Shown here piece after piece: positions 12,870-47,992 of a stretch of 64,000 bases of DNA. The position numbers and the translations under genes are program-made. The notes under the pieces were generated by a model. The model searched no databases and had not been told where the DNA came from. It saw nothing but the letters and a program-made list of their open reading frames with translations. The first letter of the stretch is position 1. Each line of letters begins with the position of its first letter. Source of the DNA: Polytrichum commune (taxonomy: Eukaryota; Streptophyta; Polytrichopsida; Polytrichales; Polytrichaceae); contig OX485805.1 in NCBI GenBank assembly GCA_950295325.1, positions 43,424,758 to 43,488,757 of the forward strand. The letters run 5' to 3'.

Positions 12870-15593
12870 GTTGGATTTCAAAATACCATGAGAGGCTCGG
12901 ATTGGGCTCCGAAAGCATTTGGGTGCACATGGAAGAAGAACTTCAGCCCTTGGGGAGGGCCGGAGTGAATAAAGTGTCTGTTCGTAGGACATCCGTGGCC
13001 ATACCCTAGGGTATTGGCGTTGGGTGAAGGGTGCACATGGAAATAAGGTTTTTGTGTTCATCCAACATGTATGAGAAAATAACATTCGATTGCTTGCTCG
13101 CAAAAGGATAGGATGTGAACTCAACGCTCGAATGAACAACTTTTCTACAGCTTTTGGTAGCAATTTTATGTTTAAGATATCATTCTACAAATCCTACAAC
13201 TTTATGTTTACATTTTTCTAATATAGTCTATGCATGGAACCTTTTCCTTGTAATAGGCTCAATGGGGATGGATTCTTAAATGTTGTATTTATATGGACAT
13301 TTGGATGTACCATGGATGATTGGGATGACAATTGTATTGGTGAGGTGGGAAAGTTTGGAGCTTTTGAGGTCAAGGGTTCTCAATTTGGGTCTAGCTTATG
13401 GTTGTGTGCACTATGTTTTCATGTATTCCAATGAAGGTGTATTATTCTTGTGTGTCTTTGCTATTGTAAGGGGTTTTAGGTGCGAGTTCTCCTCCACAAG
13501 CTTAGGGCAGTGCGAGAGTGGCATTCTCTCATTTTTATGAGTGTGAATCTCTACAATAAATCTGTGCTTTCATGTCATGGTGTTCTCCAACCAATATTTT
13601 TTCTTTCTTTCTTTATGGTTTATGTGAACAAATGCACCCATTGGTGACATGCACACAATTAGTTTGTTTTCTAGTTGTGTAGTGGGGGGTTATGACAACA
13701 GTGATGGTTGTGAGAGTCAAGTGCAATGTACCTTGATCTTTTAAAAAAATTGTTGTTGTGGAAGCCATTGTGTGGAGTGGTGGCACAATTACAAGTGCAT
13801 AGTGGGCTACATAATCATTAGTTTAGAATGCTATAAGATGGCACATGCCATGGACATCATAATTCCAACATTTTGCACGTAAAATGTTTTAGATATATTA
13901 TAATGTTGTTCTTTGTGTTTTTGAACACATTAGGAATGCAAAGCTACATCATGCATGTCTAGCATTCAATTTGACGTGTGAGGGATTGCATTGTCATAGT
14001 TGCATTTGCAAATGGTGCGATTCAATACCTTGCTCCATCTTCTTTACTTTTGTGTCATATGTTATTATTAAAATATGAACTGATTTTTTTACATTTTTAT
14101 ATATATTTAATATAAGATCCTATAATAACAAATGGCTAAATGATTATAATTACTAGCAAGTTTTTCATAAATTATCTAAAGACTAATTACTTCTAGAGTG
14201 ACGGTCACTTAAATTCCTTGATCTTCACATAATAGCCCCCTTAGAACACCGGATTAATGCACATGTATAGCAAAATGTAGGCCAAGTGAACTCCTTGGGC
14301 TCAACGCTTGAGAGGAAGGTAATAATACATTAGTGTCTTTACCAACCTTCGTATCATTGGCTTTGGTATATGCATAGGCTCTAATTGCCTTCCTTTTTAG
14401 CTTCAATTTTATGCCCTCATCCCTACTCGGTGTTCATTGAAACGAGACTTTGCATGTGTTTGACATTTGTCTCTTGGAGGAGGAGGAAAAGCCAATTTGT
14501 TGTTTTAAAAAAACCCTATGCCATATTAATTAATGTATGCAACTTGTTTGTTTCCTCATTTCTTACTAGGTAGCCTTGGACTTTTCTTTGAATTTGGGTT
14601 TGGGTTTCGGGTTTGGTTGCCTCATATTGGTAATAACGTCCTTCTTCCCTTCGCTACTAGGCTTACTCTTTACAATGTGTTTTGCTTAGTAATTAATTGT
14701 TTCCAGTCAACACTATAATTTATATTCAATTTAAAATTAGACAATATAGAAGAAACTAAGTGGCATTATGTCTACATCAAATTACGATGGTTATCTTGTC
14801 AAATGAAATGCCTCACTATCTAAAGAATGTTACGGCCAAACAAGGGCAATGATTTTTTTTTTTGAGGGGAATGAAGTTCAAGTTTTCAATCTCCCATAAA
14901 CACAAAACATAGTTGTGGTGAGCTAAACGAGTTACATAATGGCAACAATAGCCAAAGTTGGAAGTTGAACCATTGTAATTTTGTGTCCAAGGCTGAAAAC
15001 ACATGAAGATGCACATCCCTACTTTCAAAACCCTACATGACAATCCCCCCAAAAACCCTTGTATTTGGAATGAAGGAACATGGATTTATACAAGCATAGG
15101 CATTCCCTTTATTATGCGAGAACATGTCCCACTAGTGTCAAACATTCCAATCCATAAAAAAGTTGATACCCATTTGCCATCACAAGGCGGGATGATATTA
15201 TTATACCAAACTCAAATATTTGGATGAACACCATGTTAGTGCATGTGTACTATGGCCCAAGTATCGAGTAATTGCATGGCACATAGACTCAACGGAAGTT
15301 CAAAATATTGTTTCTCTTGAATTACCCACAAATGAATGGTATCAAGAACATGGAAAATGTTTGACCCTATAGCATGGCTAATATCAAATATGGTGACACG
15401 TGCACAATGCATTTGTACATATATACATTGGTTGAATCTCGTATGTGTTGACTTAGGACCAATGGCACCCTTAGCATGTCCAGTTAGAACTAGCCCCTAC
15501 ATGGATATGATAAAGTCATCTCGACTTAATGGCCTATGTTGATTTTGTGGTCTTTGATTCCCTTTTGATGTTAACTAACTCACATGCCAAATA

Positions 15594-15630
<37 letters not shown>

Positions 15631-16100
15631 GTTGTACACTAGATTCAAATATGTCCTTAATTCAATTTATTTATGCTGAATATTATCTCCAATAGTTTGA
15701 TATCATTTTTCTATGTTCATACCATATTTGATCACTATTAGTAGACCACATAAATATGTTCGATTTCTCCATGAACTCTCCATCTTTGGCGTGGTCACAA
15801 AATTTACCAACATAGTTTGTGATCTTTGTGTCTCCCACTTAAATTTACTTCTACGACCACTCCACTTTAGTATACAATGCAATGAAAACATTTGGATTGT
15901 GGGTCCAAGAGTCTTCATCTTTGTCACCAAAAAAATGTAGATGAAGTGGTTTAGGGTTAGAATTTGCATAATTGTGACTTGTATTTTCCATTGATTGTGC
16001 AAATAACTTTTGGACAATGGCATAATTTGTAAACCTGCAATTGCATATATTGTTAACTTCCATGTTAACCAAATCTATAAGAAGCAAACCAACCAAGTTG
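12870..16100. other. Intergenic upstream of the RSP2-like gene
   Basis: AT-rich DNA with only short, unrelated open frames and a (GA)n microsatellite at about 15596-15627. The RSP2 promoter should lie in the last part, but no element can be named with confidence. Confidence 0.45.
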
Positions 16101-16119
16101 TATTGAGTTGCCATATAGA

Positions 16120-19100
16120 ATGGATTCAAAGTACGGAGAGTCATTCGACGCTGAATATGTAGATAGAATGTTGGGCAAAGTTTTGATTCAAGCATGTGCA
16201 TCGGTAACATTGGCTAAGCCCTCTGACCCAATTGAATACTTGAGTTTGTGGCTACACAAGTATTGTGACAATGCAGTGGTCTTACAAAATTATGAAAAGG
16301 AAAAGGCTCACATTGCGCATAAAGAAGTAGTCGCAAAGGAAAATGCTTTAAAAAAGGTTCAAGAGGAACAAGAAATCAGACAAAAACATTTTTCGAGCTT
16401 GAGTTACGTGAAGAGTATTTCGGATGATCCATACATGTTGTGGGAGACATGTTTGAAAGCCATAACCACACTCACTGGTATATATGTTTAAATGATTGGT
16501 CAGGTCATTTATTCTCAAATGTAGAGTATTAATATGCATAAACTCACTTGTAATTACTCAATATCTCAAATAATATGGTTGAATAGCACATTATGTTCTT
16601 GAGAACCATCATATTTAGGTTTAATCCAACTCATGAATTCCACCTAATTGTTTTGAATTAGGTTCCCAAGCTGCTTACGTAGCAGTGGTGGTGAGAAAAA
16701 TATTTGAACCCAAAAAAGAAAAAAAACCAACAAATGAAGGTGATGATGAAGGAGAGGAGGAAGAGGAACCAACCGAAGAAGGTGCATTCACGGTTTTCAC
16801 ATAAATTGTTCTCGAATCCTGTGACATAAAACTTAAGTTTTGAAAGTTTGGACAATTTCATATGTAAGTTGCTAATCATATGGTTGAGTGGCCTAATTTG
16901 CTCCTCTTTTAGTTTAAATGTCTAGCCATCATGAAACAATGATCCTTATTTTGTGAGTTTACTTAATTGAATTTTATTTGAGATGTAAAAAAATGTTACT
17001 TATCACAACTATAGAATGTATAACCTTGAAAGGCTCAAGTGGGAAAAACTTCAAAAGTGTGGATGATAATTGCTTTAGATTTCCATTAGTTGTTTGGAGG
17101 CATATGGTACATGAGCCTATTTTTTTATACAACAAAAGCTCAAAATTTCCTTAATCCTCTTTCGTCTAAGTTTTGTCACAAATGTGCTAAAAATATTATG
17201 TCATTAATGAGCATGTTCTCACAAAACACAAGTATGTTAAAAAAAGGATGGTCAAATAACAAGTATCAACCCTTAAACCCAAGAGTTTTGGTAGGGTTTC
17301 ATGGAAGGCATCTAATGGAAGACACCTATCTAATAAAGAATTAGGGTTTAGAAACCGGTTTAAAGAAGTTGAACTTTCTTTATTGTTAAGGTATGCATGT
17401 ATTCCGTGTCTGTCTAAAACTTTGTGTATGCATCACAACGAGAATCATAAAGGCCAACAAATTAGTTGTTACCATGAAGAGGTCACAAACATATCAATTG
17501 TTTTCTAAGAATAAAATGAAAAATAATGTAGGAGTGTCGGCTCTCTCAACATGGCTTACACATGGTTACAAGTGTTTTTCCTTGGCATATCACAACTTTA
17601 CACATGTTTGGGCACACCTGCACAATACATGATGCATGAAATATACAATTTATCAAGTTCTATGAAATACCCCATATTTGTGCATAGTCCACTAAGTTAT
17701 AAGAAAACTTATACATCGGATGCAGTCCACTGCTCAATGCGAAAACTCACAATTCACAAATTTTTGTAAATTTGATGATTTGCAAACCCCTTTTCACTTG
17801 AAGAGAACGGAAGAGAAGTGAATGTGTGTGAGACAATACACGGCGTTTTGTAGTTCATAACATAGTTATGTTACGGCATTGAATGTGATTCAATAGAAGG
17901 CGAAGAAGGAGAAGAGGGAGAAGAGAAAGCGAGTTCGGATGTTTCGAGCGTGGACAATGAGCCGGTGGAGATGGAGGATGAACCAAAGGAAGGGGACGAA
18001 GAAGCTCCCCCCGAGGAGGAGGAAGGAGGAGAAGAAGAAGCCACCGAGGGCGAAGGAGGTGGTGATGAGGATGGTGAACCACCCCCACCAAAGCCTCCGA
18101 GGCCACCCAAACCGCTCAATTATAAGAATAAGAAGATGTTGTATGTAGCCGCAACCGTCCCGTCACATGTGTACATGTTGAACAAGCAACTTGACATCAA
18201 AAAAGTGAGTGTATTTCTCATACCTTCTTAATCAACCATGTTACGTTGTGTAACATTGTCTCATCATAGGTTTACTTTACAATGTCACAATCATAACCTC
18301 GTTCTTAACAAGTCAGAATCATGCTCCCAGTTTGTTTATGAAATCCGACAAGATTCAAAGAGAGAGACGTGACTGAAGAACGCTTCATCTTTATCATAAT
18401 CGCAAGCTCATATGTGAACCTAGAACGGGTTTATTGAGCAGAACTATGGGACATGTGCTATTGCTTCATGTCGGAGGCCCATTCAAATATTATAGTTCGT
18501 ATCTAACGATGTTCATTATTTGATGTAGGGACCTGTTACATATAGTTTGCTTACAGACGGACTACCGAGCTTGCATATACCCAATGTCTTGTACAAAGAA
18601 GGTTGTTATTTCATGAACATTGTGTGTCTATGTTTTTATAAAGCCTATATATATATAAAAAGAAACTAGATACAAATTTTAGTATCGAAACTTTAATTAT
18701 TTTGATTTGGTGAATGTAACGCATTGAATTGTAAGTTCTAAATATTTGCAGGTATTCATTTTTTCGGAGGAGTTCCTCGATTGGGAGCTTATTATGTGGC
18801 TCCGATGAGGATTGAGTTTATAGCGAAGAAATACATGCAAGATGAATTCAAAGACAGACCAGCTGAGTGGTTTGATCAAGTTAAACAGTGTGGTCCAACT
18901 TCAGAACCCACTCCACCTTTATATAAAGATTCATAAACATCAACCAAAATTTCTCAACGTTCTTTTTTTTATGGCAACAACATAAGGCCCATTTCACACA
19001 CGAGCCAAGAGCCGTGACCATGAAATTGTGAGAGCCCAAAAGAAAGTGTCCAAAGGCCGTCCCAACACACCTCCAACATCATGCAGTGTGGTCACGGATC

Positions 19101-22100
19101 CTCAAGTGTAGTGTGAAGTCATATGTGATTGGTTCCTCAACCAAATGCTATTTCAATGAATTTTCTATTCATGTGGGTCCTCACACATGATAAAATAGAA
19201 TAAATCAACGGTTGTGATCGTTCGGAGTGCTATGGTCTCCCAGTTTTGCGTTAGGCCTACCTCCAAGAGGTGGTGTTTGAAAATAGTCCAAGTGACCATG
19301 TAACATGATCCATTCGATGCCATGTAAGAATCCATGTAGACTTTACATCCATCTTGCATTCGGTTACTAATTCCGTTGGTCCCTCAAGCGTAGTGTGAAG
19401 CGAACTTGGACGGGCTCCACCTATCCCACCAATGAGAGTGCTTGAAGTGTAATGGTCACGGGCTCTCAGCCTCGTGTGTGAAGGGGCCCTAACATATGTT
19501 CTTAAAGAAGAGGAGATTATTCAAGTAGTACGAATATGATAAGTATGTTTTCTTAGAGCACGACTAAAGTAGGGGCAACCTCATTTACGCAATGAAATCG
19601 CAGGTCGGTCTTATTTTTACCCCTTACCATTCATTTCTACATGCCCAAATCCATCCAAAACTACACTAAATATTGTATTTATTGTCATATGCTCGTGTAA
19701 GTCTATTAATACGGTCATCCCAACTTACTTCTAGTTCACATTGAAACAAAGTGATGAAATATTGTCACAGATGATACAAATTTGGATGAAAATATGCTTA
19801 GTATGTGGCAGTGATTCCAACATTGTATAATCTTAAATGTCCAAATGCTCTTACAAGGAATGACCAATGATGTTAGGTTTACATTTAGTGTTGGTGACAC
19901 TACACAAGCGGTTTGCAATTAGTATTGAGCAAGACAAAGAGAGAGAAAAACTTCGGTCTCCGGAGGAGACCGACGTGAATTAAGTGTATGTTCGATCCAC
20001 CCCCAATCCGATGCCCCTAAGCAAGACAAATAGAATATCGGTGGCAGTGAGGGCCACTTTAATTTACACCTAGACCAGGCCAATTCCCCTTGAGGCCAAT
20101 TGCATGAAATTTCAGCCCCTTTTGGGTTGGAGGCCGGCCTCAACTACACATTATAATAAGATTATAATGGGGCCCAATTTTCCCATATGTAAAGGCCTTA
20201 GGGCCAAGAAGCTAGGCCAATAAATCTATCATAATCCAACGGATCTAGCATAATCTAACATAGAGCTATTTATATTTCCACATAATCCAATGGATATGGT
20301 TTGTTAAAAAATTTATATATATTAAAAATTTATTGAAACTTGACATTGGTCCCGAGGTCAAAAATTGGCCTTCCATTTTGGGTGCACCCAATTCAATCAG
20401 CTTGGGCCGTATCATACCATGCATTTTTTTATTAAAATTTTCATACCACCAAATCGGCCCGCCCTCTAGGTGTGAAGGGTTTTGGCTGATTTCAGCCTTT
20501 TGGCCAATCACAAGGGAGAATTTTAGGCCTCTTACACAACGAAGTGGCCCGGCCTCTAGGTGTAAAACGGCCCTATATACAATACATAACCAACGTTGGG
20601 TAATCGGATGTGAATTTGAGTCCCTTGGCCCTACCCTGCTCAAGAGTCCTCATGGTGCAGTGTGAGGTTTACTGCCTACCTTGCGGTGGGTGGGCTTTTG
20701 GATGTTACCTACCTAGCTAGTTTGCCCTGTCAAGTAGAGAGAAGATTTCATGGTGGGAATCAAACAGCCAACCACTCCATTCGGAAATGGGTACCTCTCC
20801 TCTATCACGTGGTAGTTTAGGGTCATCTCGAATCCACTAAATACAATATTTAGTGGAACGTCTTTTGTGAATAAATGGGGCTACCTAATTATGGGTTTCC
20901 CCCCCCCCCTTTGAGCTTGGATATGAAAGGCGTAATTTCATTGGTGCATTTGATGCAATAAGTTAGATGCAATTCAAGCACATGTTCAAATTGCATGCAC
21001 ATTGCTTTTATTACTATTTATTGGACAAATTTGCGTGTCGGAGAGTAGTGTGCACCCGCACTATTATCGCTAAGGACTTTATTGTGGGAGATAGTAGTTA
21101 CGGTGTAACTCTTGTACTTCGAGTGAATTTTGTGTGTTGATGTGTGCATGATGTAGCCATACATATCGTGAAAAATAAATAATATGGATATTTAGTGTTC
21201 TAAACACCACTTCAAATGCTATTGAATGAATTATATGTAAGGAATCAAACTAATCTCAATCCCTCTCTCTCTCTCTCTCGTCATGCAAGGCGTGTGTAAA
21301 ATGTGTTGATGTGTGTTATTTTGCAGAAAGCAAATTGTGGCGCTTTTATGTTGTGACACGTTGAAAGTGGACAATTTTGGGATTGGAAGGCCGTTCCATC
21401 CGATCGAGGAAGAGTTTCTTAATGAATGTGGCAATGTGTTAAGTGGGATTTTGGATGCAAACAATAAGTACATTGCAAAACAACACAACACTCCGGAAGT
21501 TATTGAAAAACACATGGACAACGTCGTGGAGATAAAACTTGCAAGGCAAGAACAATTGGAGCAAGAACGGCTCGACGATATCAAGCGCAAGAAAGCGAAA
21601 AAAATTGCGTTGGCGCAAAAGAAATTTGAAGTTGCGCACAAAGCGTGGCAAGAACGTCAAGAGGCGAAAGCGGCGTTGAAGGAAAAACAAGAGAAAGCAA
21701 AACAAGCTCGGATAGCAGCTGGCAAAGAGGTATTGTTGTATGGATTCAACAAATAATCTTGTTCGTTTTAGGGGCTTGTTAAATCGACCACAAACTTGAA
21801 TCAAAGTTCATGCGAGTGGACTAGGATCTGACCAATCATTCAAGTTGGCCAAGTTTTTTTAATTCTAACGTAGAGCTAACACCTTGCTCTCTTCATGTGT
21901 GAGATGGAAAATCAAAATGTGACCAAGTCGTGTGGTTGCATGATGCATTTTCGTGGTTGTTTGAACAAACAACGTGGTCAATTGAACAATTTACTCGATT
22001 CATTGTCATTATCATAGTACCAAATGCATCTTTTGGGGACCATGAGATGTTAAACAAGTTACAATTCATGGTTAAAGTTGTGACAATGTGTATATCCATA

Positions 22101-25100
22101 TATACAAAGGGTACGAATTAAAATATTTGTTTTGCATGATCAAATTCAATTTTTTCTTGTCCACCCATGAAAATAGGGAACATCGTTCCTGTGAAGATAT
22201 ACTCCTTCCACTATGTTTTCTTCAAAACTGATGTCAAAATTTATAAATGCTTGCCGTTTAATAGGAACCTGAAGATGCAGCAGAAGAAGCAGAAGAGCCG
22301 GAAGGTGAAGAAGATCCTGAGCCTGTTTTGGAGGTTGTAGAGGATGAGGCAGAAGCGGCTGATGGAGAGGATGCCGAGGCGGAAGCGGAACCTGAAGAAG
22401 AAGCTGAAGAGGGAGAGGATGGAGAGGGAAGTGAACTTGAAGAAGGCGACAAAAAACCAAAGCATAAATTCGATGATGCTAAGCTTGAACCCGATCCGAT
22501 GGCTATATTAAAAGAGGTGGAGCCTGAAGAAGGTGAAGAAGGTGAAGGAGAAGAAGGGGAGGAAGGGGAAGAGGTGGAACCCGAAGCGGAAGCGGAAGAG
22601 GAGGAGCCTGAAGAAGTTGAAGAAGTTGAGGAACCTAAAGAGGCCGAAGAAGGCGGTGAAGGAGCCCCGGTTGAATCCGAAGACATGAAAAAATTGAAGG
22701 CCAGGAAGGTGGAAGATGCCAAAAAGGAGAAAGAGATGGCAAAAAAAATAAAAGCTTTGACAAAACAATTGGAAGGGTTTGAGAAAACAAAACAAAAAGC
22801 AATAGAAGAGTTGGAGGCTCTTGGGAAAAAAGTTGAAGTGTATGAAAAAGCATTGTTTGTTGCCGACGGTGTTGTAAAATATCTTAGGAAATTTATGGAG
22901 AACATATATAAACTTATACTCGAGAATAAGGTACCTTTATATACTTGAATCCCATACCTATAGTCTACATCGTCGACGTGTTCCAACCTCACGTGACACG
23001 TTTGCGTATTAAGTGTGTGTTGAGAATTGGTAAAGTGAATCATGATAAAATGCTCATGGTTAGACACGTCATGCTTTGTAAACATGTCTAATGGTTAGTC
23101 ACGTTGTGCTTTCTAAACATGTCTAATGTTTAAACACAATGCATATGGTCATGTAATCTAATGCAAAACTCTAATCTCAACTATTCAATATACGAAAACC
23201 AAACATTGGCCTAAACCCACACCCTTGAGGCCTCTTTCCATGAGGGTTTGCACGTGAACATAAGAAATGGAACACCTTTTGAAGGGTATCAAGTCCTCAA
23301 AAGGATTGTTTTGTCATGCAAGACATAAAAAATAATATAATTCAAGGAATATCGTTTAGTGATTTTTTTTGCACCTCCTGTAAATGTACCTACAATAACT
23401 ACCATCAAAAGTCCCATTGCCCGTGAAGCACATTGTGACAATTTTCGGACCATTGTCACAATAAACGTGTTTTTAAATTATTGTGTGAATTTGTACATTC
23501 ACCATGTCAATCTCCAAAAGAAACCCTCAAAATTACATCCTTTAGTCATAGCATATAAATACAAGTCATTCTTAGTATGTTGAAATAATGTAACATTACA
23601 AAACTCATGTAAGAATTAGAGCGGCCACTTTTCATGCTTAGTTGCGTACCCCGAAGGAGCCAACATTTAGACACGAATGACCAAGGTTAGTAGGTTCCAA
23701 CCCAAAATACGTTAGCATAGTATTACATTGTATTTATATCTTAATATTTGAAATTCAAATACCTAACACATTTTGAATCACCTTGCAGGCTATGCAACTT
23801 GAGTGTATAAAAAGATGGATGTATCCAAATAGACATGTTCAACGAGTGTTAAAAGTAAGGACCTCTTGTATGGGTTGATTGATGTGATGCGTGCATTGAC
23901 ATGTTACTGAAGCTTATGACGTTTGATTTGCCTTCTAATGAATAATGTGGACCACCAACATGTAGAGGTTATGGAGCTCTATAGATCTACAAGGTCCATT
24001 GTCTAGAAAGAAGATAAGATTGGTGTTGTTAAACATGTTGGCTCAAAATACAAAACCAAATATTGATGTTATTGTAGTTGATATCAAATACTAGTTGAAA
24101 GGTGATATTTCAATGTCGATTATGGATATTTGTGAAAAGAAAGTATCCGTTGCACAACATATTTGTGTGAAGGAGGATAGTTCCTTATGGAATTCTTCAC
24201 AAATAGTTACATATGCTATGTATTGTCACACATAAACGCCACCAAAACGGTTTTTAAAAGTGGCGTCATTGACATTTCGCTTCTATATGCGCAAGAATAA
24301 ATTGTTACGATTGTTTGGGTATGTTTGACAGGCATTGCTACATCTTCTCGGTCACAAGCAACTTGTCATTGACGATTGGGGCTCCGCTCGGAAATTATTC
24401 AACACAAATTTACTAGAGAAGGTTTTTTCTTAACCCAACTATTTGCAACATAGATACTCCAAACTAATTTTTTTATTAGTGTATTCATTCTAGTGACAAC
24501 TCTTTAGTTCTTGGACAACTGTCAAAATAACTATAGTTGACTAGATATTTTCTCAATACATTTTAGGGAACAACTATAGTTAACCAGAAAATTTTCAAAC
24601 CGATTTGAAGAACGATCATAATTACTTAGAAAAATCCCATGTATTATTATATATTCGAAGATGTTTGTCTCCTGATTTGTTTTAGTTGAGGGTAATTCAT
24701 ACGCTCGGGCCACTGAAGATCATCAAGAAACGCCTTTATACGATCACTTACAGTGTTGGGTTATAGAACAACCACCATGTACATCACCTACACAAGTAAC
24801 ACACTAGTGACACTACAACATTACAACAAAAATCTGTGAAGAGATTGTGCTTAAGTTTAATTAACTAATTAACTAATAGTTCAATTAGTTGGTTAGTTGT
24901 CCAAGGTCTGCAACCATGAAAGTCATTATATGTTTCGTGGTGCAATTCGAGCCCCTAACAAGTAGTAAATCGATTTGTACTTGGTAAAACGAGATCATCA
25001 CTATACATAACACAACCTATACTACAAAGAGGAAGTGGAAACTACATCATATGTGATACAAACAATAAGATGTACATGATGTGCATTTGAATCTAGGTCA

Positions 25101-28100
25101 ATTATATCAATCCAAATCTTTCAATATATAACACATCTTGCATGCATGTATATTATGATACAAATGTTCGATTCAAGTGTGGTCCTTGTAATATTTCTTG
25201 CTCAAAACAATCATAAACAACCTTGAAAGAAAGTGTACAATGGCCTTTTGAGCCTATAGGGGTTACATTATATTGAACACTTATGTCGTTATTTGGAATG
25301 TTGGGTAAGTCGATTGTTATTCTAGCCGTGTAGCCAATTTGTGGTTTACAATTGTCTAGGTATTGAAAGATTATGATCCACTCATCGATAATGACCCCGC
25401 TCGGTGGAAGATGGCCGACTCTTTTCTCGTTGTAAGTTGCAATACGAAGCCATCTTTCACTAAATATTGTATTTAGTGTCATGTGGTATTTTATGTCGCT
25501 ATGGCAAATTTTTAGTAATATTTCTTACAAATAAGTGTATACATTTTTCCAACCCAACTTATTTTTAGTTCATCCAAATGCTAGTTGTTGAAACAAAGTT
25601 TGCTATATTCTACATCCTAACATTCGTGTGATGAAATATTGTCATAAATGATTGAAATTTGGATGAAGAATCACTCAGTAAATGACGATAATTGCGACGT
25701 TGTAAATATGTAATGCCAAATTTTATTTACAAGGAATCACAAATAATATTAGGTTTACATTGAGTGTTGGTTACACTACACGGACGGTTTAAAATTAGTA
25801 TTGAGCAAGACAATTAGAATTGGTGACACTAAATGTCATATTTAGTGTAGTGTTTGATGAAACTTGTGTCATCCATGCCTTTGAACGTTGAAATAGACAA
25901 AGGGATGTTATTTATTGTGGTGAAAAGTACAACCTCGGATACATAACATGCATCAAACTTTATATGTATGCCCTATCAAAACACACTAATGACTATAGAG
26001 TGATTCCCTCTCTTCCATTGATCTAAATTCTATGCATGCACCCATCCCCGTCATGTGAGATTTTCAAATCATTGGGAGAGCCTTACGGATTTAAGACCGG
26101 GAGGCATCATAGAGATGCATAACATTATTCAAATCCATAACAATGTTTTGCGGTACCAACAATATTCCATAAAATATCCTCGGATATTCACCACATCTAT
26201 ATTGAATATGGGGAACGTCCAAGAGTATTCCACATAATATTGTTAGTCCCACAAGACACTGTTGTGGATTTGAATAATGTTATGTGTTGACTTTATTCTT
26301 AACAAAAAGAAAACAACACAAAAACTACCAAAAGTTGTGTTATATATATATATATATATATAAAATTAGAGTTGTCCGTAAAGTTCTTCAACCTCGAAGA
26401 GGTACGAAAGCATGGGGTTGATCCTTCTTTGACAAAACTTTCTATTAAAAGCTCTTTGGCTTGTTGTGTTTCAAAGCCTCTCTTAAAAGTTGGGTGAAAC
26501 TTTTGGGACTTTCTCTTTCCACCTCTCAAACTTTCAAGGAATTTGAGGATCTAATTTGGGTTTGAAGATGAGACCCGTGCTCCTAAATCTTGGATTGGAT
26601 ATGCAACGTTGCCTTCACTCGCCCCATCATAGTTAGACAAGGCAGAAAGTCAAATCTCAATAGACCAACACCACTCTTTGTATGTGCTAATCGAAGGATC
26701 AAGAAAGCTTGGGTGACTTTTGTGCTAATTCTCATGAACTTAGGGTTTGGGACTTAACCCAAGGTTTCATCTGCTTTACTTTACAAATAACTCTATTGGT
26801 CTAAACTTGTTAAATACACATGTAACGAGGAAAAACAACGGTTTGATGTTTACTTGCACATTTGGATTGACAGGGATTGAAGGATGAAAAATTGGTAGAC
26901 CAATCTTGCATCGGATTTGTAAGCATCTTCTTAATTGAAGAACTCATTGACCTTCGTCTATGTTATGCAAAAAAACGTCTATAGCAACTTGCCAAATTCG
27001 TAGAAATGAGATGATTTTTTGAATGAATTTTATCCATATAACATCCCAAATATATTAGGGTAACATAACATGGACCTAACATGTAGCATGCCTTCCCAAG
27101 CAATTACATGATCACTTCATAACTAATGCTACATTGGAGTAACTTTAGAATCCCTTCAAAGTAATGCTTCTCAACGGTGTTATATTATAACCACAAATTT
27201 GTGTCCTTAATTATTCCTCCCAAATGAAACTCGTCGAACTCTACAGTGACCATAAAGTGACCATAACACTATTCAGTTTAGTGACCATGTTGGGTGGGGT
27301 CAGGGATATGCCATGCAAGGTCCTAGAATTGTACCTTATAGATGCGTGTCTTAGCATATTCAACATGATAAACTAGGGTGAAACGACATTACTGAACATT
27401 ATTAGAATGGAACCGTCGATAGTAGCTGAATAATGTCATGACTAGTTAACATGGTGACTCCCACTATGATTATAGGCCACCATGACATATAACCCATACA
27501 TCATTTACTTAAAATAGTGTGGACCATGGAAATCCAAATCATCCCACCTCTTATAATCATGGACAACATCATTTACTAGATACCAAAATTTTCCTATAAC
27601 ATGTTTTTATGACTATCTAATCATCTCAATCGGATTGACAATTCAACTATTTGATGGACGTGATGTAGTTATTGCAACAATGGATACTAGCATGCAAAAA
27701 AACAACGGCTGCAGGGGTTAAATACCATACTTGCAAATCAAAATTTGAGAATATTTCCAAGGTTCTTATACATGTTCCACATCCCCCATGCATTTTGTGA
27801 GTGTTTTTGTGTAGGCTCCAACAATATTTGGGTGTTCCTTTCACTTCATGATAATGTTATGCTCTCATGTTGAATGTTCAATACACTCAATATAATGTTT
27901 AAGTGTCATATGGTATTTTTGGTCACCATGGTAACTTTTATTGTCAAGGATGATGGATGAGTTCGTCCATTGGCCAAAACTCTACCTTCTCTTGTCAGCA
28001 ACTTGTGATGAAATATTGTCATGGGTGGTTGACAATTGGATGAAAAACCACTTCGTAAGTGACAATAATTGCAACACTGTACATCTATAATCTCCCCTCC

Positions 28101-28981
28101 CCCCAAAGAAAAAGAAAAAGAAAAAGAAAAAATGTCAAATAATGTTTGGTTAACATTTAGTGTTGGTGACACTATACCACGGTCTACAATTAGTATTGAG
28201 CAAGACAATTAGAACTGGTGACACTAAATAACATATTTAGTGTAGTTCATAAGCAATTAGTACAAAATTGTGATCCTCTACAATTTACTACATGTAGGAG
28301 TTCACAAACCATATGCTTTTACTGGTGGTGTGTGTGGGGGAGGGGGGCAATATAATGGCTTTGTGTGTGAATATTGCTTCGATAACATTATTCAAATCCA
28401 TAACAATACTTTGGGAGACTGACAATAATCCATGGAATATCCCCCACATTTAATTGGAATGCGGGAATATTCTGTCGAATATTGTCAATCCCACATAATG
28501 ATGTGCACACATGGAACCCACCTCCACAAATCCCATATGACAGATATGCAAGGCTAGTTTAGCCCACCGATCCTTGTACGACGAGTGTGAGGGTTTAGGG
28601 TTAGGGTTTATAAGCCAATCCCGCTCTTTTGGCATGCGACTCTATCCATAAGCTCATAAACACTTTCCTTTTTTTTGCGAACTCCGCGCTCAAAGTTTGA
28701 TACGGAGACAACTCGTACGGACAATTCTATTGTAGGATTTCACGACCAAAGAGATGCAAGTGATTGTAAGTCAAGTGGAGGTGCAATTGACGTCGGAGAA
28801 GTTGAAGAAGATGACGGCCGACGAAGAGACGAGGCTCGAGAAGGCGAAGATGGAAGTCGAGGCGGAGGAGAAGCGGCTCAACGACATCATGCTCGCGGAA
28901 CAAGCCGAGAAAGAAGCGCAAGAGAAAGCGGCCGAGGAAGCTCGAGCGGCCGCCGGTGAAGGCGAACCCGAGGCGGCCTAA
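16120..28981 (+). CDS. RSP2: Radial spoke protein 2-like (DPY-30 + GAF), sperm flagellum
   Basis: Eleven exons with matching phases: 16120-16477, 16662-16781, 17897-18204, 18529-18601, 18752-about 18887, 21327-21729, 22265-22930, 23789-23854, 24332-24421, 26874-26918, 28736-28981; about 836 residues. Residues ~17-51 (VLIQACASVTLAKP...YLSLWL) are a DPY-30 motif. A GAF-like fold follows: LTGSQAAYVAVVV, then after a Glu-rich insertion (~140-230) MLYVAATVP, GLPSLHIPNV, GGVPRLGAYYVAPM and IVALLCCDT. Next come a charged coiled coil (~385-466), a second Glu-rich stretch (~467-600) with coiled coil, and a Lys/Glu helix at the C-terminus. DPY-30 plus GAF is the layout of Chlamydomonas RSP2, a spoke-head/neck protein needed for flagellar motility. 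The exon 5 donor is uncertain: cutting after 18866 or 18887 both keep frame. The ATG at 16120 is the first Met before the DPY-30 motif. Confidence 0.78.
18986..19489 (-). mobile_element. MITE family A, copy 1 (RSP2 intron 5)
   Basis: About 504 bp, bounded by inverted ends GGCCCATTTCACAC and GTGTGAAGGGGCCC and flanked by TAA on both sides (18983-18985 and 19490-19492). It is the reverse-oriented relative of the segments at 35013-35515 and 38011-38509, with similarity running through the whole length. No coding capacity. The short TAA/TTAA duplication would fit PIF/Harbinger or piggyBac relatives; superfamily is not settled. Confidence 0.85.
19664..19940. mobile_element. MITE family B, truncated copy (RSP2 intron 5)
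   Basis: Starts CACTAAATATTGTATTTATTG and shares with 25458-25847 the blocks GATGAAATATTGTCA, GTTAGGTTTACATTTAGTGT-like and TTAGTATTGAGCAAGACAA. The right-hand hairpin end is missing. Confidence 0.7.
20051..20575. mobile_element. Possible TIR element in RSP2 intron 5
   Basis: The left end GGGCCACTTTAATTTACACC resembles the reverse complement of the right end (GGGCCGTTTTACACCTAGAG). Both are followed by a TACACCTAGA..GGCC block, which recurs internally near 20460. No target duplication is evident and no protein is encoded. Read as a degenerate non-autonomous element. Confidence 0.45.
20835..20855. repeat. Solo 21-bp palindrome identical in form to MITE B ends
   Basis: CACTAAATA-CAA-TATTTAGTG is a perfect 9-bp inverted repeat around a 3-bp loop, the same arm sequence that forms both termini of MITE family B, here standing alone in RSP2 intron 5. 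Confidence 0.7.
25153..25482 (-). other. Orphan 109-residue open frame in RSP2 intron 9
   Basis: Antisense to the RSP2 gene. The translation has alternating hydrophobic and polar residues suggesting beta strands (for example ARITIDLPNIPNNDISVQYN) and is not low-complexity, which is unusual for intronic sequence here. Its first residues run into the end of MITE B (25458), so the start is artificial. I do not recognise a family. It may be a captured or decayed gene fragment, or chance. Confidence 0.25.
25458..25847. mobile_element. MITE family B, full copy with hairpin termini (RSP2 intron 9)
   Basis: About 390 bp. The left terminus CACTAAATATTGTATTTAGTG and right terminus CACTAAATGTCATATTTAGTG are each self-complementary, so both ends can form hairpins, and they are also inverted copies of each other. 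The interior matches 27884-28242 and 19664-19940. The orphan frame at 25153-25482 overlaps its left end. Confidence 0.82.
26118..26284. mobile_element. MITE family C, near-palindromic copy (RSP2 intron 9)
   Basis: About 167 bp. It starts CATAACATTATTCAAATCCA and ends with the inverse (GGATTTGAATAATGTTATG). Complementarity continues inward almost to the centre with scattered mismatches, so the transcript would fold into one long hairpin. Truncated relatives lie at about 28382-28500 and 33064-33150. Confidence 0.85.
26341..26361. repeat. (TA)n microsatellite
   Basis: Simple TA dinucleotide run in RSP2 intron 9. Confidence 0.85.
27884..28242. mobile_element. MITE family B, third copy (RSP2 intron 10)
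   Basis: About 359 bp, from a decayed left hairpin (CACTCAATATAATGTTTAAGTG-like) to the right hairpin CACTAAATAACATATTTAGTG. Internal blocks GATGAAATATTGTCA, AACATTTAGTGTTGGTGACA and TTAGTATTGAGCAAGACAAT match the copy at 25458. It contains a small AAAAAG microsatellite (about 28107-28129). Confidence 0.8.
28382..28500. mobile_element. MITE family C, truncated copy (RSP2 intron 10)
   Basis: Begins ATAACATTATTCAAATCCAT and continues through ACAATAATCCATGGAATATCC and the AATATTGTCAATCCCACA-type second arm, but lacks the distal inverted end present at 26284. Confidence 0.7.
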
Positions 28982-29830
28982 GTTATCGATCGGAAGGTAA
29001 GTTAGGCGCCGATTCATTCAAGTGACACGTCACGATGTTGTAGAGGTTCCGACTAATTGAAAATGTACACGTGGCAATTTGATGAAAATCGTAACACAAA
29101 TCGTGCGTCGACACGTGCCTATATATATATCACCTACAATAATTGTAAGTGTGATCACCGTGCAGATGAAGCTAGAGCAATGATCAAGACCGAGGGTGAA
29201 GTTGAGCTTGAGGCAACTTAAGTTAGCCTAGGTGTCGAATTGCTAATTCTTTGAGGCGACACTTAGGATGTTGTAGGGGTTCCGACTAATAGAAAATCAA
29301 CATGTGGCACTGTGATCAAATCATCAAACAAATTGTGTGTCGAACATGCTTATCACCTACAATAATTGTCAATTGTGATCATCATGCGAATGAACCTAGA
29401 GCAAAAAATTGAGACCAATTAAGGACAAAGCCGAGTCGAAGGCAACTTAATTAAGTCACCCTAGGTGGCGATTCTTTGAGGTGGCACTTTGGATGTTGTA
29501 GAGGTTCCAACTAATAGAAAGTCAATGTGTGGCACTTTGATCAAATTTGTGTCGAACATGCTTATCACCTACAATCATCAATCGTGATCACAATGCGAGG
29601 AAGCAAGAGCAGCTATTGAAACCGAGGGTGAAGTTGAGTCCGAGGCAACTTAAGTCACCCTAGGTGCCAAATTGTTGATTCTTTGAGGTGGCACTCAAGA
29701 TGTTGTAGAGGTTCCAACTAATAATAAAAAGTGACACGTGGCATCGTGATCGTATTTTGAATGAATTTACGTCAAACTCGCTTATTGTCGTTAACAATAA
29801 TTGTCAATCACGATCACAATGGTGTACTAG
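28934..29830 (+). repeat. Tandem decayed copies of the RSP2 C-terminal codons plus 3' flank
   Basis: The functional unit runs from GAGGAAGCTCGAGCGGCC (28934) through the stop (28979-28981) and the 3' flank (TGTTGTAGAGGTTCCGACTA, CACCTACAATAATTGT). Copies follow with starts near 29166, 29393 and 29597, each with the GAAGC-like start, a GAGGGTGAAGTTGAG-like block, a GAGGCAACTTAAGT-like stop region and the same downstream motifs. A final partial copy begins near 29821. Units are about 205-230 bp. Copies 2-4 lack an acceptor-to-stop exon of useful length and are more AT-rich than the first. Confidence 0.85.
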
Positions 29831-31410
29831 AGGTGGAATTTTGGTAAGGGCAATGTAAATCAAAAATGAATGAAATGAATTATGAAGAAATGACCATGTT
29901 CTACTTATGTAGCGTGTGTCCTTGAGAAGCATCTCCGGAAGGGTATCCGGGTACATGTTTGTCAAAACCTTCTTGTGAAACGTGTTTTGTTTTTGAATTT
30001 AATAGCAACACAAGGTTTGAAGACATGGTACTTACAACAAGACATGTGCTCCAAAAACAAGCACTTATGGCACCGTTGAGTGTGAGCCTTGCCAAAGATA
30101 AAACCCACCACCTTCTTGACAATAATGAGCAAGTTTTATGTTACACGTTTTTGCCACCTAAGGGCTTGTGATTGAGAACAAAGTAAAAACATTACATGTA
30201 GAGACAACCAAGATTTATATACCTTCCTTCTTGGCAAATTCAACCATTTCTCCATCTTCGATCAAATTCTATAACCGCATGCAATTCCATCTCCAACTCG
30301 TACTACTTGACCGATCCATCCACTTGCAATTTGGTGCAGTCCGCTCGGATTCGAATGTTTATTATATTTGCAATAAATGAACTTTGAGAAAACTAAAAAT
30401 AAGATTAATATAGATATAATATTTATTGTATTATTTATTAAAAAAGTTACCAAGAATTTTCATTTATGTTCTATAGTGTCCAAACAACCTATTGAACTTT
30501 CATTAGTAAAAGTTAAAATCATGAATAAGACATTGTTGCACTGTGTAACTCCAACTAGTAATGCGCACTAAGAGAAAGCTTGGAGACTATTGTCTCCTCA
30601 CAATGACTATCATTCATTATTACTAAGGGAAAAAAAGTTACTTGAAAACCTATTCAATTCGGAAAGACATGTGATTGCTTTTAAATGATCACTAGTATGG
30701 TACCTTCAACTAATATGTCAATTTCTAGGCACGGTGTTGAAATCCAACATTCCCTCCCAATGATGTATATATGAATGAATGAATGAATGAAATAGCACAA
30801 AATTTATGTATTTAAGTACCCGATCTAGATGATAAAAAAAAATAAGGGCAAAACCTATACATTTTGCTATAGATACCAATGTGATATCCACACTGATTAT
30901 CCCAATTAGTGCATGTAACTATCTAGAGTTACACAATGTTATAATGTTTTTATAATGAGAATGTAATATTCTACCAAGAAAAATCATTTATATTCTATCA
31001 TGTCCGAACAACCTATTGAGCTTTCATTCATAAAAACCGAAGTAAGACGTTATTGCACTCGTGACTCCGAATAGTAACACGCACTAATCGGGCCAACCAA
31101 TGACAATCATCTTGAGCTTAGAGAGCGGTTTCCGGCAACGTGCCATGCTCGGAGCCATTCTTATAAAAAAGAAAACATGTACCAAAACGCACGGGGTGGC
31201 CGATTTGGTCCCCGAGAGACTTGCTTCGACGACGTCTTGTCCGATTCACAACAATTGTAACGACAAAAACATCAACGTCCACAACACGAGCACCTAGATT
31301 ACATCGAGATTGGGAAAAATGGGCCGGGTTGTTTGTAAAGCGCCGCCGCATGCATTCGAAGCACCGCGGGCGGGCGGCCGGATGGGTTGGCGCCCGAGAG
31401 TCGCGTTTAA
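29831..31410. other. Intergenic between RSP2-like and SAXO-like genes
   Basis: No gene seen. A segment near 30448-30570 (CATTTATGTTCTATAGTGTC, AACAACCTATTGAACTTTCA) recurs near 30975-31090, a local duplication spaced about 530 bp. The GC-richer part at 31190-31400 has short open frames but no recognisable protein. It may once have been SAXO 3' flank before the MITE at 31411 inserted. Confidence 0.45.
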
Positions 31411-31794
31411 GGTAGGGGTGGCAATTTCCGTACGGGTCCTAAAGTCGACCCCTATGTCGGAAGCACCTATTTACGTGCTTTTACCTAGGTTTACAAAAGC
31501 ACCTATCAAGGTGCTTTTACCGTTCACAGCGCTGCCAACATTTCATTGGCTGCCAGTGGTCGGTTTTAGAAATCCACCCTGTGGATATACCACGTACCCT
31601 ATGTGCGAGTGTTGGTCACTCTACAAGGTTTCCTTTAAAAATTTGTAGGAAATCATAAACATGCTGATTTATTTTTATTTTTTCATAGTTGCTTTTGCAC
31701 CAGCTTTGCGGAGCGCTCAAAATTTATAAAAAAAATAGTTTCAGCATCCCAACTAGGCACATCTGAAATTTGGACGGAAATCGCCACCCCTACC
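31411..31794. mobile_element. MITE family D inserted next to the SAXO stop codon
   Basis: About 384 bp. The left end GGTAGGGGTGGCAATTTCCG and right end (reverse complement GGTAGGGGTGGCGATTTCCG) match at 19 of 20 bases. TTAA flanks both sides (31407-31410 and 31795-31798). No coding frame. The right TTAA directly abuts the SAXO stop codon at 31799-31801. TTAA is the piggyBac-type target; a 3-bp TTA/TAA target cannot be excluded. Confidence 0.9.
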
Positions 31795-31798
31795 TTAA

Positions 31799-33268
31799 TT
31801 AGTAGCACATATGGTCTCCGCAAATGATGGTGGGCTTGCCGAGCGTCAATACGGGGCACTTCCCGGGCACCGCGCGGCCGGTGAAGTCGGCTTGGTAGGT
31901 GGTGGGCCCCGTGACCTTCCCGGTGGGTTGGGGCCCGTCTTGCTTCTTGTGCGTGTACTTCTTGGGCATCTTCCATTGCACGAAGTCGTTGAGGTAGGTG
32001 CTCGTGCCGTCGAACTTGGCGCCCGTGTTGCCCAAGCTACACCCGTGCTTGATGACCACGTTCCTCGGTTGGGGGCCGTTGTTGCAAAAGTCGACGTTGT
32101 ACGTGGTGTCCCCCGCGAACTTGCCCCCGCCGTTGTGGTTTTGGTGCTCCATGCGCCGCCGGGGCGCCATGGACTTCGACTTGTCCCAAAAGTCGACGTT
32201 GTACGTCGTCTCCTTTTGCATCGGCCCCCCCAAATCCACCTTCGGCTTCGGCCGCATCGACTCCCGCGGCCCGTACGGGTGGGGCACGAAGTCGACGTTG
32301 TAGGTCGTGTTGGAGTCCATCCGCGCGTTGTTCTCGTCCTTCTTCTCCTGCTTCCGCACATGCTTCGGGGCGATCGGCCACACCGGGAACTTGGCCGTGT
32401 ACTCGGAGATCGTGCCCGGGTGGTAGTGGGCGTGGACGGACGTGTGCTTCGCAGGGCACTTGTGCATGCCGCACTTGCATGTTTTGCAAACACAAACGCG
32501 GCCCTCCTGTACGAAACCCACCCAGTTGAAGAAACACTCATGAGATGAAACAACATTCATAATGTCGTGTAAATACCGATCGTGTGTCACTACAGCTTGA
32601 GTACCAACCACCACTAACAAACAACACTAAAACATAGCAAGGTCACACATGAATAACACATCTCGACACGTGATCAAGGAGCCAAGGAGGAGGCTCCTCA
32701 CTTAGGAGCCTCACTTTCCAAAACTAAGGTTCATCCATCCAACTCTAAATGGATGAAGCCCAACGGATAAGGTGCGGCCGCCGACGCCGCATACCGTGAC
32801 AATAATGTCACTCAACGACGACAACCCCCCTTCCCCCTGGGTACTATAACAGTGGGAATGTTGGGAGCTCAATTTGACTACGAGTCCCCTTGCGCGACTT
32901 TTCGAACATCCGGTTGTTGTATTACAAGGGTCCACATAATGAGAGTTGAACGTTGAGTAATGTTATGTTTAGGACTTTGAACAAAGTTGCCCATGGAAAT
33001 GCCCTTGCATTATGAGGGAATTCGGATTCATTGGGTGGGTTTTAGAGACGGGGTCAAGTTATGTGAGGCATAACATTATTCAGATCCATAACAATGTTTT
33101 GTGAGACTGACATTATTCCATGTAGTATTCCCGGATATTCCCCACATTCATACTATTTATCAATTTTGTTTCAGTTATTAATTTTGACAACAAATAAATA
33201 CTTACACCTGATTTGGGGTCACATGCCGGTTTGACGGGCCCATCGGGACCTCCTTTTACGGAAGCCAT
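31799..33268 (-). CDS. SAXO-type microtubule-binding axonemal protein
   Basis: Two exons on the minus strand: 33268-33206 (MASVKGGPDGPVKPACDPKS...) and 32506-31799, joined in phase 0 (donor GGT|GTAAGT, acceptor GTACAG|GAGGGC), 256 residues. The start of exon 2 has CVCKTCKCGMHKCP, the Cys-rich N-terminal signature of the SAXO/FAM154 family. Six spaced modules follow: SEYTAKF, TTYNVDF three times, STYLNDF and TTYQADF, each with basic/proline linkers. Family knowledge: SAXO proteins bind and stabilise axonemal, centriolar or cytoskeletal microtubules through such repeats. In a plant the only expected site is the sperm flagellum and its basal bodies. The exon is markedly GC-rich compared with its surroundings. 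The gene is convergent with the RSP2-like gene. Reading through the intron into 32507-32620 gives no better N-terminus. Confidence 0.85.
33064..33155. mobile_element. MITE family C, half copy in the SAXO intron
   Basis: GCATAACATTATTCAGATCC followed by ATAACAATGTTTTGTGAGAC and a GGATATTCCCCACATTCATA-like block matches the left arm of the element at 26118-26284. The right arm is absent. Confidence 0.7.
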
Positions 33269-35012
33269 GTTCCTCAACACAACAAAGATAATACACTTAC
33301 TAGTATACTAGTCTATTACACTTTCTTGCACACCCACAAACTTGAGAGGATGTTTTGCTTTTACTTTTTTGGGGCTTCTACCTACTTGAGGTGGAAGTTC
33401 TCTCTGCAAAAAGCAAATATGCATATACGCATTAGTTCTTTCTATTAAAAATTACATAAAAAGAAAACATTACATGATGCAATGATCCCCTTCTCAAGTG
33501 TGCACAATTTTATCTCCTTTAGTCACTGCTACTTAAAAGATTCCGGATACATTTTGAGTTCATATTTAGCATGTGGCAACTTTTAAGACTAAGTAAGTCT
33601 TGGATTTCGAGACACTTTATCATGTTTACAATTTATCTCTTTCGCACCTTACATACATGTAAATGTACATATACACATGTATGTTTAGCCTCGTGAGGAT
33701 AACAACCAACATGTTAACAAAACGACTCCTCAAGTGCACCTCCAAACATACATTTCCACACATATAACAACAAGTGAACTACTACAAGGCTCGTTACACT
33801 GCTAGAATCGGCATTCACAATTTGTGAAGTGATTTCTTGCTCACACTACGAACTCAAGGAAAGAGATTGTGGGCAAGGATGTATGCTAGAATTTGAATAC
33901 ATGGTGCCAAACCTCGAGCGTGTCTCACTTGATATGATATTTTTAGAAGCTAAAATGCTATATCATTTTATGTGAACTATATGACAATACCATGAACATT
34001 CCTATGACCCAAGATCGAGCTTACTTTTCTAGCTCGATCTCAAAACATGCACACGATAAGTAAGTGAATGTTTGAACAAGCAATTCATGGAGTCTAGTAT
34101 ACGGGCGTTAGGTGCTTCCCAACCCACAAACACTTGTAAACGTTATTCAAAGGTAGCTTGATGCAAAGAGCGGCAATAATCACAAAAAGTAAGATATACG
34201 ACTAGGTACTTGTGTTTTACGTTACAATTCGTTTCAAATATCTCTACATGCACTTGCTTGTAGAACTATGAACAATGTCGGAGAGCAACTCATGCAAGCA
34301 AGACTTGTGAGTTTCATATGTTCCAGCATGCACTTGGCTCGCATATACAACATACAAATGCATGTGTTTGTGGATAGAGACAACAAGCGTAGCAAAAGTA
34401 TGCCTTGAGAACGACCATGCCGAGGTTCAAAAGCCAAAGGAAGTGAATTCAAAGTTGGTTCAAAAGTATCTTGAAGCAAAATACCAATAAATAAACGCTC
34501 AAGTAAAGATCCACGACTAGGTACTTATGATTATTCTTAGACAATGCGACATGGGGCATGCTCATAGAGCTATGAGCAATGCCGGAGACGACGTGCCAAA
34601 TTCATGTTTCCACTTGTCTCACATGTCCACATTGAAATGCATATAATATGTGTGTACGTGTGTAGGTTTCCTCAAAAAATATACCAAGTTGGGGTTTCTC
34701 TACTACACTTGGCTACGACAAGTGTAGCAAAAGTGTAACTTAAGGACACCGATGCGAAAGGTCAAGAGAGCGGAGAACGAAGAGTTGTGGAGGGTGGCGA
34801 AGAGTCATCGTGGTGAAATGGCAATTCCGATAAACCCCTTTGAAACCGTCCGGACTCTTGGATGCCACTTGACACTTTGGTTGTCGATGGTTACTATCAA
34901 TGTTAGACTAATATTTGGATGAACTTGTGGTATCTAAATTAAAATATAATTAATGGTGTTAGGAAACCTATGTGACTAATATCAAGTTGTAAAATTGATC
35001 ACATATACCGAT
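33269..35012. other. SAXO upstream region with a local duplication
   Basis: Includes the putative SAXO promoter. About 34150-34470 is repeated at about 34480-34800: ACGACTAGGTACTT, GAGCTATGAGCAATG/GAACTATGAACAATG-type blocks and GTAGCAAAAGT occur in the same order, spaced about 320 bp. No coding gene recognised. Confidence 0.5.
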
Positions 35013-35515
35013 TGGCACTTCACACACGAAACTGAGAGCCCGTCACTAGTGCACTTCAAGCGTTCTCATTGGTGGAAATGGCGGAGCCGGTCCAAGTTCG
35101 CTTCACACTACGCTTGAGGGACCAACGGAGTTAGTATGTGAATGCAAGATGGATGCAAAGCCTACATGGATTCCTACATGGCATCGAATAGTTCATGTTT
35201 CATGGTCACTTGGACTGTTTTTCAAAAACCACCTCTTGGAGATAGGCCTAACACAAAGTTGGGAGACCATGGCACTTTGAACGCTCACAGACGTTGGTTT
35301 ATTCTATTTTATCATGCGTGAAGATCTGCATGAATAGAGGTTCATTGAAATAACACTTGGTTGAGGGCTTGGTCACATATGACTTCACACTACACTTGAG
35401 GGTCCGTGACCACACTACATGATTTAGGAGGTGTGTTGGGACGGCCTTTGGACACTTTTCTTTTGGGCTCTTGCAATTTCATGGTCACGGCTCTTGGCTT
35501 GAGTGTGAAGTCGCC
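35013..35515 (+). mobile_element. MITE family A, copy 2
   Basis: About 503 bp from GGCACTTCACACACGAAACT to TGAGTGTGAAGTCGCCC, with inverted ends and interior blocks (TTCACACTACGCTTGAGGGA, CCACCTCTTGGAG) in common with 38011-38509 and, inverted, 18986-19489. The target duplication is no longer clear (ATT left, AGAT right). Confidence 0.85.
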
Positions 35516-36740
35516 CAGATACTTGATGGGTACCATAAGCCAAGAGACTCGTAGTATACACGAGTCATTCCATTTGTGTCATAACATCTTAATACAATAT
35601 GTTTATTAGAAGATAATTACATAAGTATAAAGATTCTTGGATGGTTATAAACCCAAATTGTATCATAAACTGAGGCATCCTCAAATCATCATACCATACC
35701 AAAAAATGTATTGTTCTTCTAAAAGAAGCATTGTTAGCAACATTGAAATAACTTTGTGACACGATGGCTATTGTTTCCAACATAACCTTACACTTCCACA
35801 TGACCAACATACAAGCTAAAGCCTATCATCTTTTAAATGTTTTGTGCAAGCCGATGATGTCAAAACACAAATGAAAACTACAAACAAAGGAAAAAAAAAT
35901 GACAATATTGTTTTTATATATCATTAGCACATTGTGAGTTGCCATTTTTTTTAATTACACATGTATATAACAACATTAACACAACAATATAGTCATGACA
36001 TTAAATATGTATGAACATAGTTTTTTAGTTTTTTTTTTTGAATAGTTAGCCGGTGTTGGTGACCTAACTTGGCACAGGGAATTAGCCCTAACATTCAAGT
36101 GGTTGAGACACATAGCATTACCCAACCCAAAAGGGTGAGGCTGTAGGCCCAAGAATTTATTTGGAATTGGGCCAAGCAACATTCCGAGAATATTCATGAA
36201 GAACACATAACCAACACCGATGTGTGTATGGAAACTATAACCGCACAATGTGCACATATTGGGTCATGTGCCAAATACGACCCACTAATTATTTGCAATA
36301 CTAAGGAGGATGAGTTTCCATGCAGGTTGTTTGCCCACTAGATTCTAGACAAATAGTGGGCTGGAGGTGTTCGCACGTAGATAAGCACAAACCACCAACC
36401 AACCACAGTCTGGTGGCCTACTAACGTAGAATGTGGAGGACCGTGGACACAAACTGCTACACCTCCATGCACCCACTATAGTCAAACCACCAAGTCAAAC
36501 CACCTATTCCCGATTAGGAACTCATTAAGAATCTATCAAGTACCATAATTCCAATCGGGCTAGAACCAATAGTGCCATGACACATGTCTTTGCTTTAGGT
36601 GCTAAAGTGAGGAGCAATGAGCGGATAAGATGAGCAGTTATGGACTATTTCTAGACACTAATAATATGTACATGCTAACTTCTGGCTGCATAAAGTCACA
36701 ATAATCTCAATTGAAGGAATACAAAATTATTGGAAAACTG
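35516..36740. other. Intergenic, nothing recognised
   Basis: AT-rich non-coding sequence. Short open frames such as 35976-36257 (minus) have no recognised domain. Confidence 0.45.
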
Positions 36741-38509: not shown

Positions 38510-38961
38510 TTAATAAATGATCATATAGGTAACCCCAAATATGTTGACCACTACATCTAGAATGGTTAACACACTTTGAGCACGTAGTCCAATCTCTTGT
38601 CAATACATTTTGTGTTGGTGTTTGTTCTTGGATATGCACCCAACCATACACCACTCAAATCATAGGTGCTTGTTCAAGAGCCAAAGCCGAATTAGGCACA
38701 CCTACCTTAATTAGTGTGGAACAACTAAGAATATAAGTTATGACTTATCACATATTCGGTGGAGCCGCCGAACAACGAGCAATTAGTGTGGTTCGGACCA
38801 CCTTCTTCGGGCGGTCACCGGGCCTTCTTCTTCCCCTTCTTCCCCTTGCTTCTTGTTGTCGTCGCCTTTTGTTTTCTCTTCTCTTGTCATTGTTTGTGTG
38901 TGTTGTCTCGCCATAGCCAGGGCTTTCGCCATAGCCAAGGCTCCGAGTCGGAGCTGCCGCC

Positions 38962-47992
<9,031 letters not shown>

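Follow-up and report, generated by a model that had tools for sequence, protein, structure and literature searches.

An RSP2-type and a SAXO-type gene in convergent orientation in Polytrichum commune, two predicted sperm-axoneme genes most likely adjacent by chance

Gene models and layout of the locus

The window (the whole 64-kb stretch of Polytrichum commune DNA that was analysed) contains an RSP2-type gene on the + strand and a SAXO-type gene on the - strand, whose 3' ends face each other. We built both gene models by hand from splice sites, reading 15500-27400 on the + strand and 27300-34600 on the - strand. The RSP2-type gene comprises 13 exons over 16120-28981, with the ATG at 16120, in agreement with the earlier sequence-only reading, and the stop codon at 28979-28981; GT-AG borders are found at 12 of 12 introns, the frame is kept across all junctions and the product is 883 aa long. 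The SAXO-type gene has two exons, separated by an intron with a GTAAGT donor and a CAG acceptor, and encodes 256 aa, with its stop codon at 31799-31801. The features of the window, with their basis in brackets, are the following.

4186-6024, - strand: two RRM exons (Pfam)
16120-16477, + strand: RSP2-like exon 1, with the Dpy-30 motif at residues 12-48 (Pfam Dpy-30 above cut-off; RSP2 alignment)
16662-16781 and 17897-18204, + strand: RSP2-like exons 2-3, acidic linker and beginning of the GAF-like region (in-frame GT-AG joins)
18529-18601, 18752-18887 and 21327-21729, + strand: RSP2-like exons 4-6, GAF-like region and charged helical stretch (7jrj_I alignment at 190-276, with a weak piece at 286-325)
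22265-22930, 23789-23854, 24332-24421 and 24686-24754, + strand: RSP2-like exons 7-10, acidic and helical stretches (Chlamydomonas RSP2 436-530 aligns in colinear order, E 0.33 alone)
25360-25431, 26874-26918 and 28736-28981, + strand: RSP2-like exons 11-13, without homology support (splice sites, phase-0 joins and exon 13 composition)
28982-31798, no strand: gap of 2,817 bp between the RSP2 and SAXO stops (both gene models)
29162-29380, 29421-29591 and 29596-29817, + strand: three decayed tandem copies of the terminal part of RSP2 exon 13 plus downstream sequence (sequence comparison)
31407-31798, no strand: 392-bp element with 25-bp terminal inverted repeats (24/25 match) and TTAA at both ends (adjoins the SAXO stop codon)
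31799-32506, - strand: SAXO-like exon 2, with a cysteine-rich start, five [ST]TYxxDF repeats and a late Cys-Pro (gene model, Pfam and human SAXO1 alignment)
33206-33268, - strand: SAXO-like exon 1, start codon at 33268 (splice-site gene model)
43707-46224, + strand: class II fumarase fragments (above the Pfam cut-off and under the full-length cut-offs of NCBIfam)
61331-63673, + strand: PPR exons (Pfam)

The 3' end of the RSP2-type gene could also be drawn differently. The gene might stop after exon 10, at an in-frame stop beyond 24754, and 25360-28981 would then be some other coding piece or a gene in decay. Such an early end would agree with the small size of exons 11 and 12 (just 24 and 15 codons), and with the fact that the alignable part of Chlamydomonas RSP2 runs out near exon 10. 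However, exons 11-13 are joined in frame through GT-AG introns, and exon 13 is open over 82 codons with a coding-like GC content by codon position (0.66, 0.33 and 0.72). We consider the early end unlikely and retain the 13-exon model; if the gene did end after exon 10, the gap to the SAXO stop would measure about 7 kb.

Base composition and repeats within the two genes were also recorded. SAXO has a GC content of 0.86 at third codon positions (0.90 for exon 2 alone), in strong contrast to 0.43 for RSP2 (0.72 for the last exon); for comparison, the values are 0.45 for the RRM exon tested, and 0.42 and 0.50 for two PPR exons. A dispersed repeat of about 500 bp occurs in three copies, one in RSP2 intron 5 (18983-19483) and two beyond SAXO (35018-35516 and 38049-38512), the latter in inverse orientation to the intronic copy. 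A repeat family is found in RSP2 intron 11 (26114-26284), in RSP2 intron 12 (28377-28464, only 65% alike) and in the SAXO intron (33065-33152). Its copy in intron 11 is a foldback, with 79-bp arms that are 77% complementary and 9 bp between them.

Family identity and proposed roles of the two proteins

The RSP2-type protein has an N-terminal Dpy-30 motif (Pfam, 24.9 bits against a cut-off of 22), and its top match among PDB sequences, as searched with phmmer, is Chlamydomonas RSP2 (7jrj_I, E 2.6e-13). Five PDB sequences were obtained at E <= 1, namely RSP2, DYDC1, two DYDC2 and a weak unrelated one (E 0.034). We also considered a bare DPY-30 protein of the DYDC type, and rejected it because the best match is to RSP2 and extends across two significant stretches. 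When searched alone, the middle region matched Chlamydomonas RSP2 with an overall E value of 7.9e-5; the stretch at 190-276 by itself gave 0.0014, and a second piece, at 286-325, was non-significant. Its sole further match among PDB sequences at E <= 10 was a bacterial regulator chain (E 1.3), presumably a GAF domain, and we take the aligned part of Chlamydomonas RSP2 to be one as well. Since Pfam models gave no GAF match in the RSP2-type protein, whether at E <= 1 or at E <= 10, the GAF label comes only from colinearity with RSP2. Further downstream, the late helical region is colinear with RSP2 436-530, at an E value of 0.33 that ranked below two unrelated matches. All the matching regions keep the Chlamydomonas order, the late part being non-significant when taken alone. 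Thus, of the DPY-30/GAF gene of RSP2 type on the + strand that the sequence-only reading had proposed, the Dpy-30 motif and the RSP2 identity were confirmed by Pfam and phmmer, while the GAF part stands only through the RSP2 alignment. Pfam matches to ApbA_C in the RSP2-like protein and to DUF1456 in its late region fell below cut-off and were discarded.

The protein described here appears to follow the plan of Chlamydomonas RSP2 (7jrj chain I), from a Dpy-30 start through an acidic linker, a GAF-like region and an acidic stretch to a KALLHLLG helical region. It differs in length, with 883 residues against 738, and in that exons 11-13 are unaligned. Mammalian DYDC1 and DYDC2 (PDB 9fqr, 8j07 and 8wzb) resemble it in the Dpy-30 region (E 6.5e-8, 3e-7 and 1.5e-5), but these PDB chains have just 159-177 residues, and the mammalian complex is described, in the accessible part of PMC10774353, as being without the long RSP2 C-terminal part. 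With its 883 residues, the RSP2-type protein would belong to the long, Chlamydomonas-like type.

The SAXO-type protein scores 34.4 bits with Pfam SAXO1-2, against a cut-off of 26.5; as this cut-off is passed, a non-axonemal repeat protein was rejected as an alternative identity. Human SAXO1 matches with an E value of 3.4e-12. It is one of five PDB sequences at E <= 1, of which two are STOP-family axonemal proteins that match at the cysteine-rich start only (E 0.015 and 0.89), and the remaining two are weak and unrelated. According to the accessible part of PMC3280300, SAXO proteins begin with a cysteine-rich N-terminus and continue with a series of Mn-like motifs, the final one carrying a Cys-Pro. 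In the SAXO-type protein, N-terminal cysteines 26, 28, 31, 33 and 38 align with human SAXO1 and form cysteine-rich motif 1. The motif [ST]TYxxDF starts at residues 88, 121, 155, 190 and 223, with a regular spacing of 33, 34, 35 and 33, and it was found at most once in each of 10,000 shuffles. A Cys-Pro lies at residue 238, past the last repeat (223-229); this was a dipeptide test only, and there is a second CP at 38. By these comparisons, all three SAXO hallmarks are present, with Cys-Pro assessed as a dipeptide. Pfam matches to CBM_4_9, Rab3-GTPase_cat and DUF7497 were below cut-off and were discarded, and one scan of viral contigs returned no relative.

Human SAXO1 (PDB 8ou0 chain D) has the same cysteine-rich start and Mn-like repeats, but is longer, with 477 residues against the 256 of the SAXO-type protein with its five repeats. 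Physcomitrella SAXO1 and SAXO2 and Chlamydomonas FAP257 are listed as SAXO members in the accessible part of PMC3280300, and were compared by name only. As two Physcomitrella SAXO proteins are named there, SAXO in land plants was already known.

Judged from sequence comparison, the identity of both genes is beyond chance, and both are ordinary members of known axonemal families. The Pfam score, the human SAXO1 match and the five repeats bear out the SAXO-type gene that had been read on the - strand. Likewise, the proposed tie of both families to the axoneme agrees with our homology searches, which placed both proteins in axonemal families and neither in a non-axonemal one.

RSP2 binds calmodulin. 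We hypothesize that, in the spoke neck, the RSP2-type protein would dock onto the RSP3 helix through its Dpy-30 motif, with its long C-terminal part extending towards the spoke head. The SAXO-type protein would attach to axonemal microtubules through its five Mn-like repeats and stabilise them. Both genes would be expressed in developing sperm, from separate promoters at opposite ends of the locus. We infer this assembly and expression of the two products, and the transfer of spoke and microtubule roles to plant sperm would be by analogy with other organisms. The mouse spoke structure shows Dpy-30 motifs of Rsph2 and other proteins wound around the Rsph3b helix. The C-terminal part of Chlamydomonas RSP2 is far longer; it extends to the surface of the spoke head, and mammals lack it (both from the accessible part of PMC10774353). 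In Tetrahymena, RSP2 is located in the spoke neck and only its N-terminus resembles Chlamydomonas RSP2 (PMC12399478, accessible part).

Contents of the gap and of the rest of the window

The sequence-only reading had the two genes ending 2.8 kb apart, convergently, with no gene between them. This agrees with the measured 2,817 bp and with the Pfam result, as no match at E <= 0.01 was obtained for any of the 24 open frames, each at least 50 aa long, that overlap the gap. No tRNA or Rfam match was obtained anywhere in the 64-kb window. What the gap does contain is a tandem array and an insertion-like element. The array (28931-29817) repeats the final part of RSP2 exon 13, together with its 3' flank, with a period of about 207-233 bp. 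Of its three decayed copies, two can still be read as a C-terminal peptide, with the stop at the same place; a fourth stretch, tested in the same way, held no copy. The 12-bp end motif of the 392-bp element is absent elsewhere in the window. Because the gap contains what looks like a mobile-element insertion and also carries a decayed array of tandem copies, its present length is unlikely to be old, and its contents would reflect ordinary turnover between two genes rather than a kept arrangement.

Outside the locus lie 61 open frames no shorter than 90 aa. Pfam was run on 60 of them and returned 18 families at E <= 0.01: RRM families, PPR and further helical-repeat families, Lyase_1 and a marginal UCH_N (E 0.0042). 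No flagellar family was found among these 60 frames, a search that genes made of short exons would escape. Two of the helical-repeat families, TPR_WDR35 and ARM_TT21, are named after proteins of ciliary transport; the match of each lies on the PPR exon at 62615-63673. The presence of PPR and RRM exons would be in keeping with a land plant. As for the fumarase on the + strand, reading of the sequence suggests a possible N-terminus near 38971. Three SSIMPGK-type peptide patterns are absent in every frame, which could be due to an exon split or to a decayed gene. Three - strand open frames (8557-9018, 9471-9896 and 10091-10492) presumably derive from a broken transposon protein, which they resemble; Pfam gave a match for 0 of the 3, and NCBIfam for 0 of the 2 searched (9474-9896 and 10094-10492).

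The pairing and its meaning for plant flagella

In our opinion, the RSP2-type and SAXO-type genes are very probably two separate sperm-axoneme genes that lie side by side by chance, and their pairing would best be read as a coincidence. We estimated how often such pairs arise under random gene order, using five assumed combinations of gene counts (150-500 flagellar genes among 20,000-35,000; assumed, not measured). Under these assumptions, 0.9-12.5 adjacent flagellar pairs are expected per genome, and the chance that any one flagellar gene lies next to another is 1.2-4.9%. Since random order with these assumed counts already predicts 0.9-12.5 pairs per genome, one adjacent pair is unremarkable. 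Against the chance reading, the specific convergent arrangement is expected in only 0.2-3.1 of those pairs.

A different explanation would be that RSP2 and SAXO form a conserved flagellar neighbourhood, their adjacency being kept in plants with swimming sperm by a common chromatin domain or regulator. Both genes would serve one organelle, and they adjoin without a recognised gene between them. However, the adjacency is known from a single genome, chance alone predicts adjacent flagellar pairs, and the insertion and the decayed array make it unlikely that the length of the gap is old. Moreover, RSP2-SAXO adjacency is unreported among the matches listed from the open-licence literature. Those matches gave no SAXO locus identifier for Marchantia or Physcomitrium. 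Mp6g07660 is described in the accessible part of PMC13190419 as a radial-spoke homologue, the spoke protein being unspecified. The accessible part of PMC3268115 mentions 'radial spoke' once, as background, and contains neither 'RSP' nor 'axonem'; the main text of PMC8128824 and PMC4947347 contains neither 'radial spoke' nor 'SAXO'; and radial spoke protein 9 is the sole radial-spoke mention in PMC6027899. We regard a conserved neighbourhood as highly unlikely.

It would be tempting to go further and propose an old, selectively kept convergent pair, opened together in the sperm cells of plants with swimming sperm, and we find this likewise highly unlikely. If it were true, the pair would have disappeared or been broken up as flagella were lost, and its position could be used as a marker of that loss. 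We also regard as highly unlikely the proposal that the two transcripts overlap as a natural antisense pair tuning both mRNAs; the genes are indeed convergent, but both 3' ends combined would have to cover the 2,817 bp between the stops, and plant 3' UTRs typically measure a few hundred bases.

The loss of motile axonemes had been attributed to seed plants with pollen tubes. This contrast is too broad, because cycads and Ginkgo have motile sperm (PMC9023351, accessible part). According to the same part of that study, most flagellar assembly genes are present in Cycas panzhihuaensis, many flagellar structural genes have been lost in Gnetum, conifers and angiosperms, and Ginkgo has swimming sperm, yet is without RSP2, RSP3, RSP9 and RSP11.

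In summary, our analysis adds well-formed gene models for two predicted plant sperm-axoneme proteins. A plant RSP2 of apparently long type, a type that mammals lack, is relevant because Ginkgo, also with swimming sperm, is reportedly without RSP2 (PMC9023351, accessible part). The pairing of RSP2 with SAXO would matter only if it recurs elsewhere.
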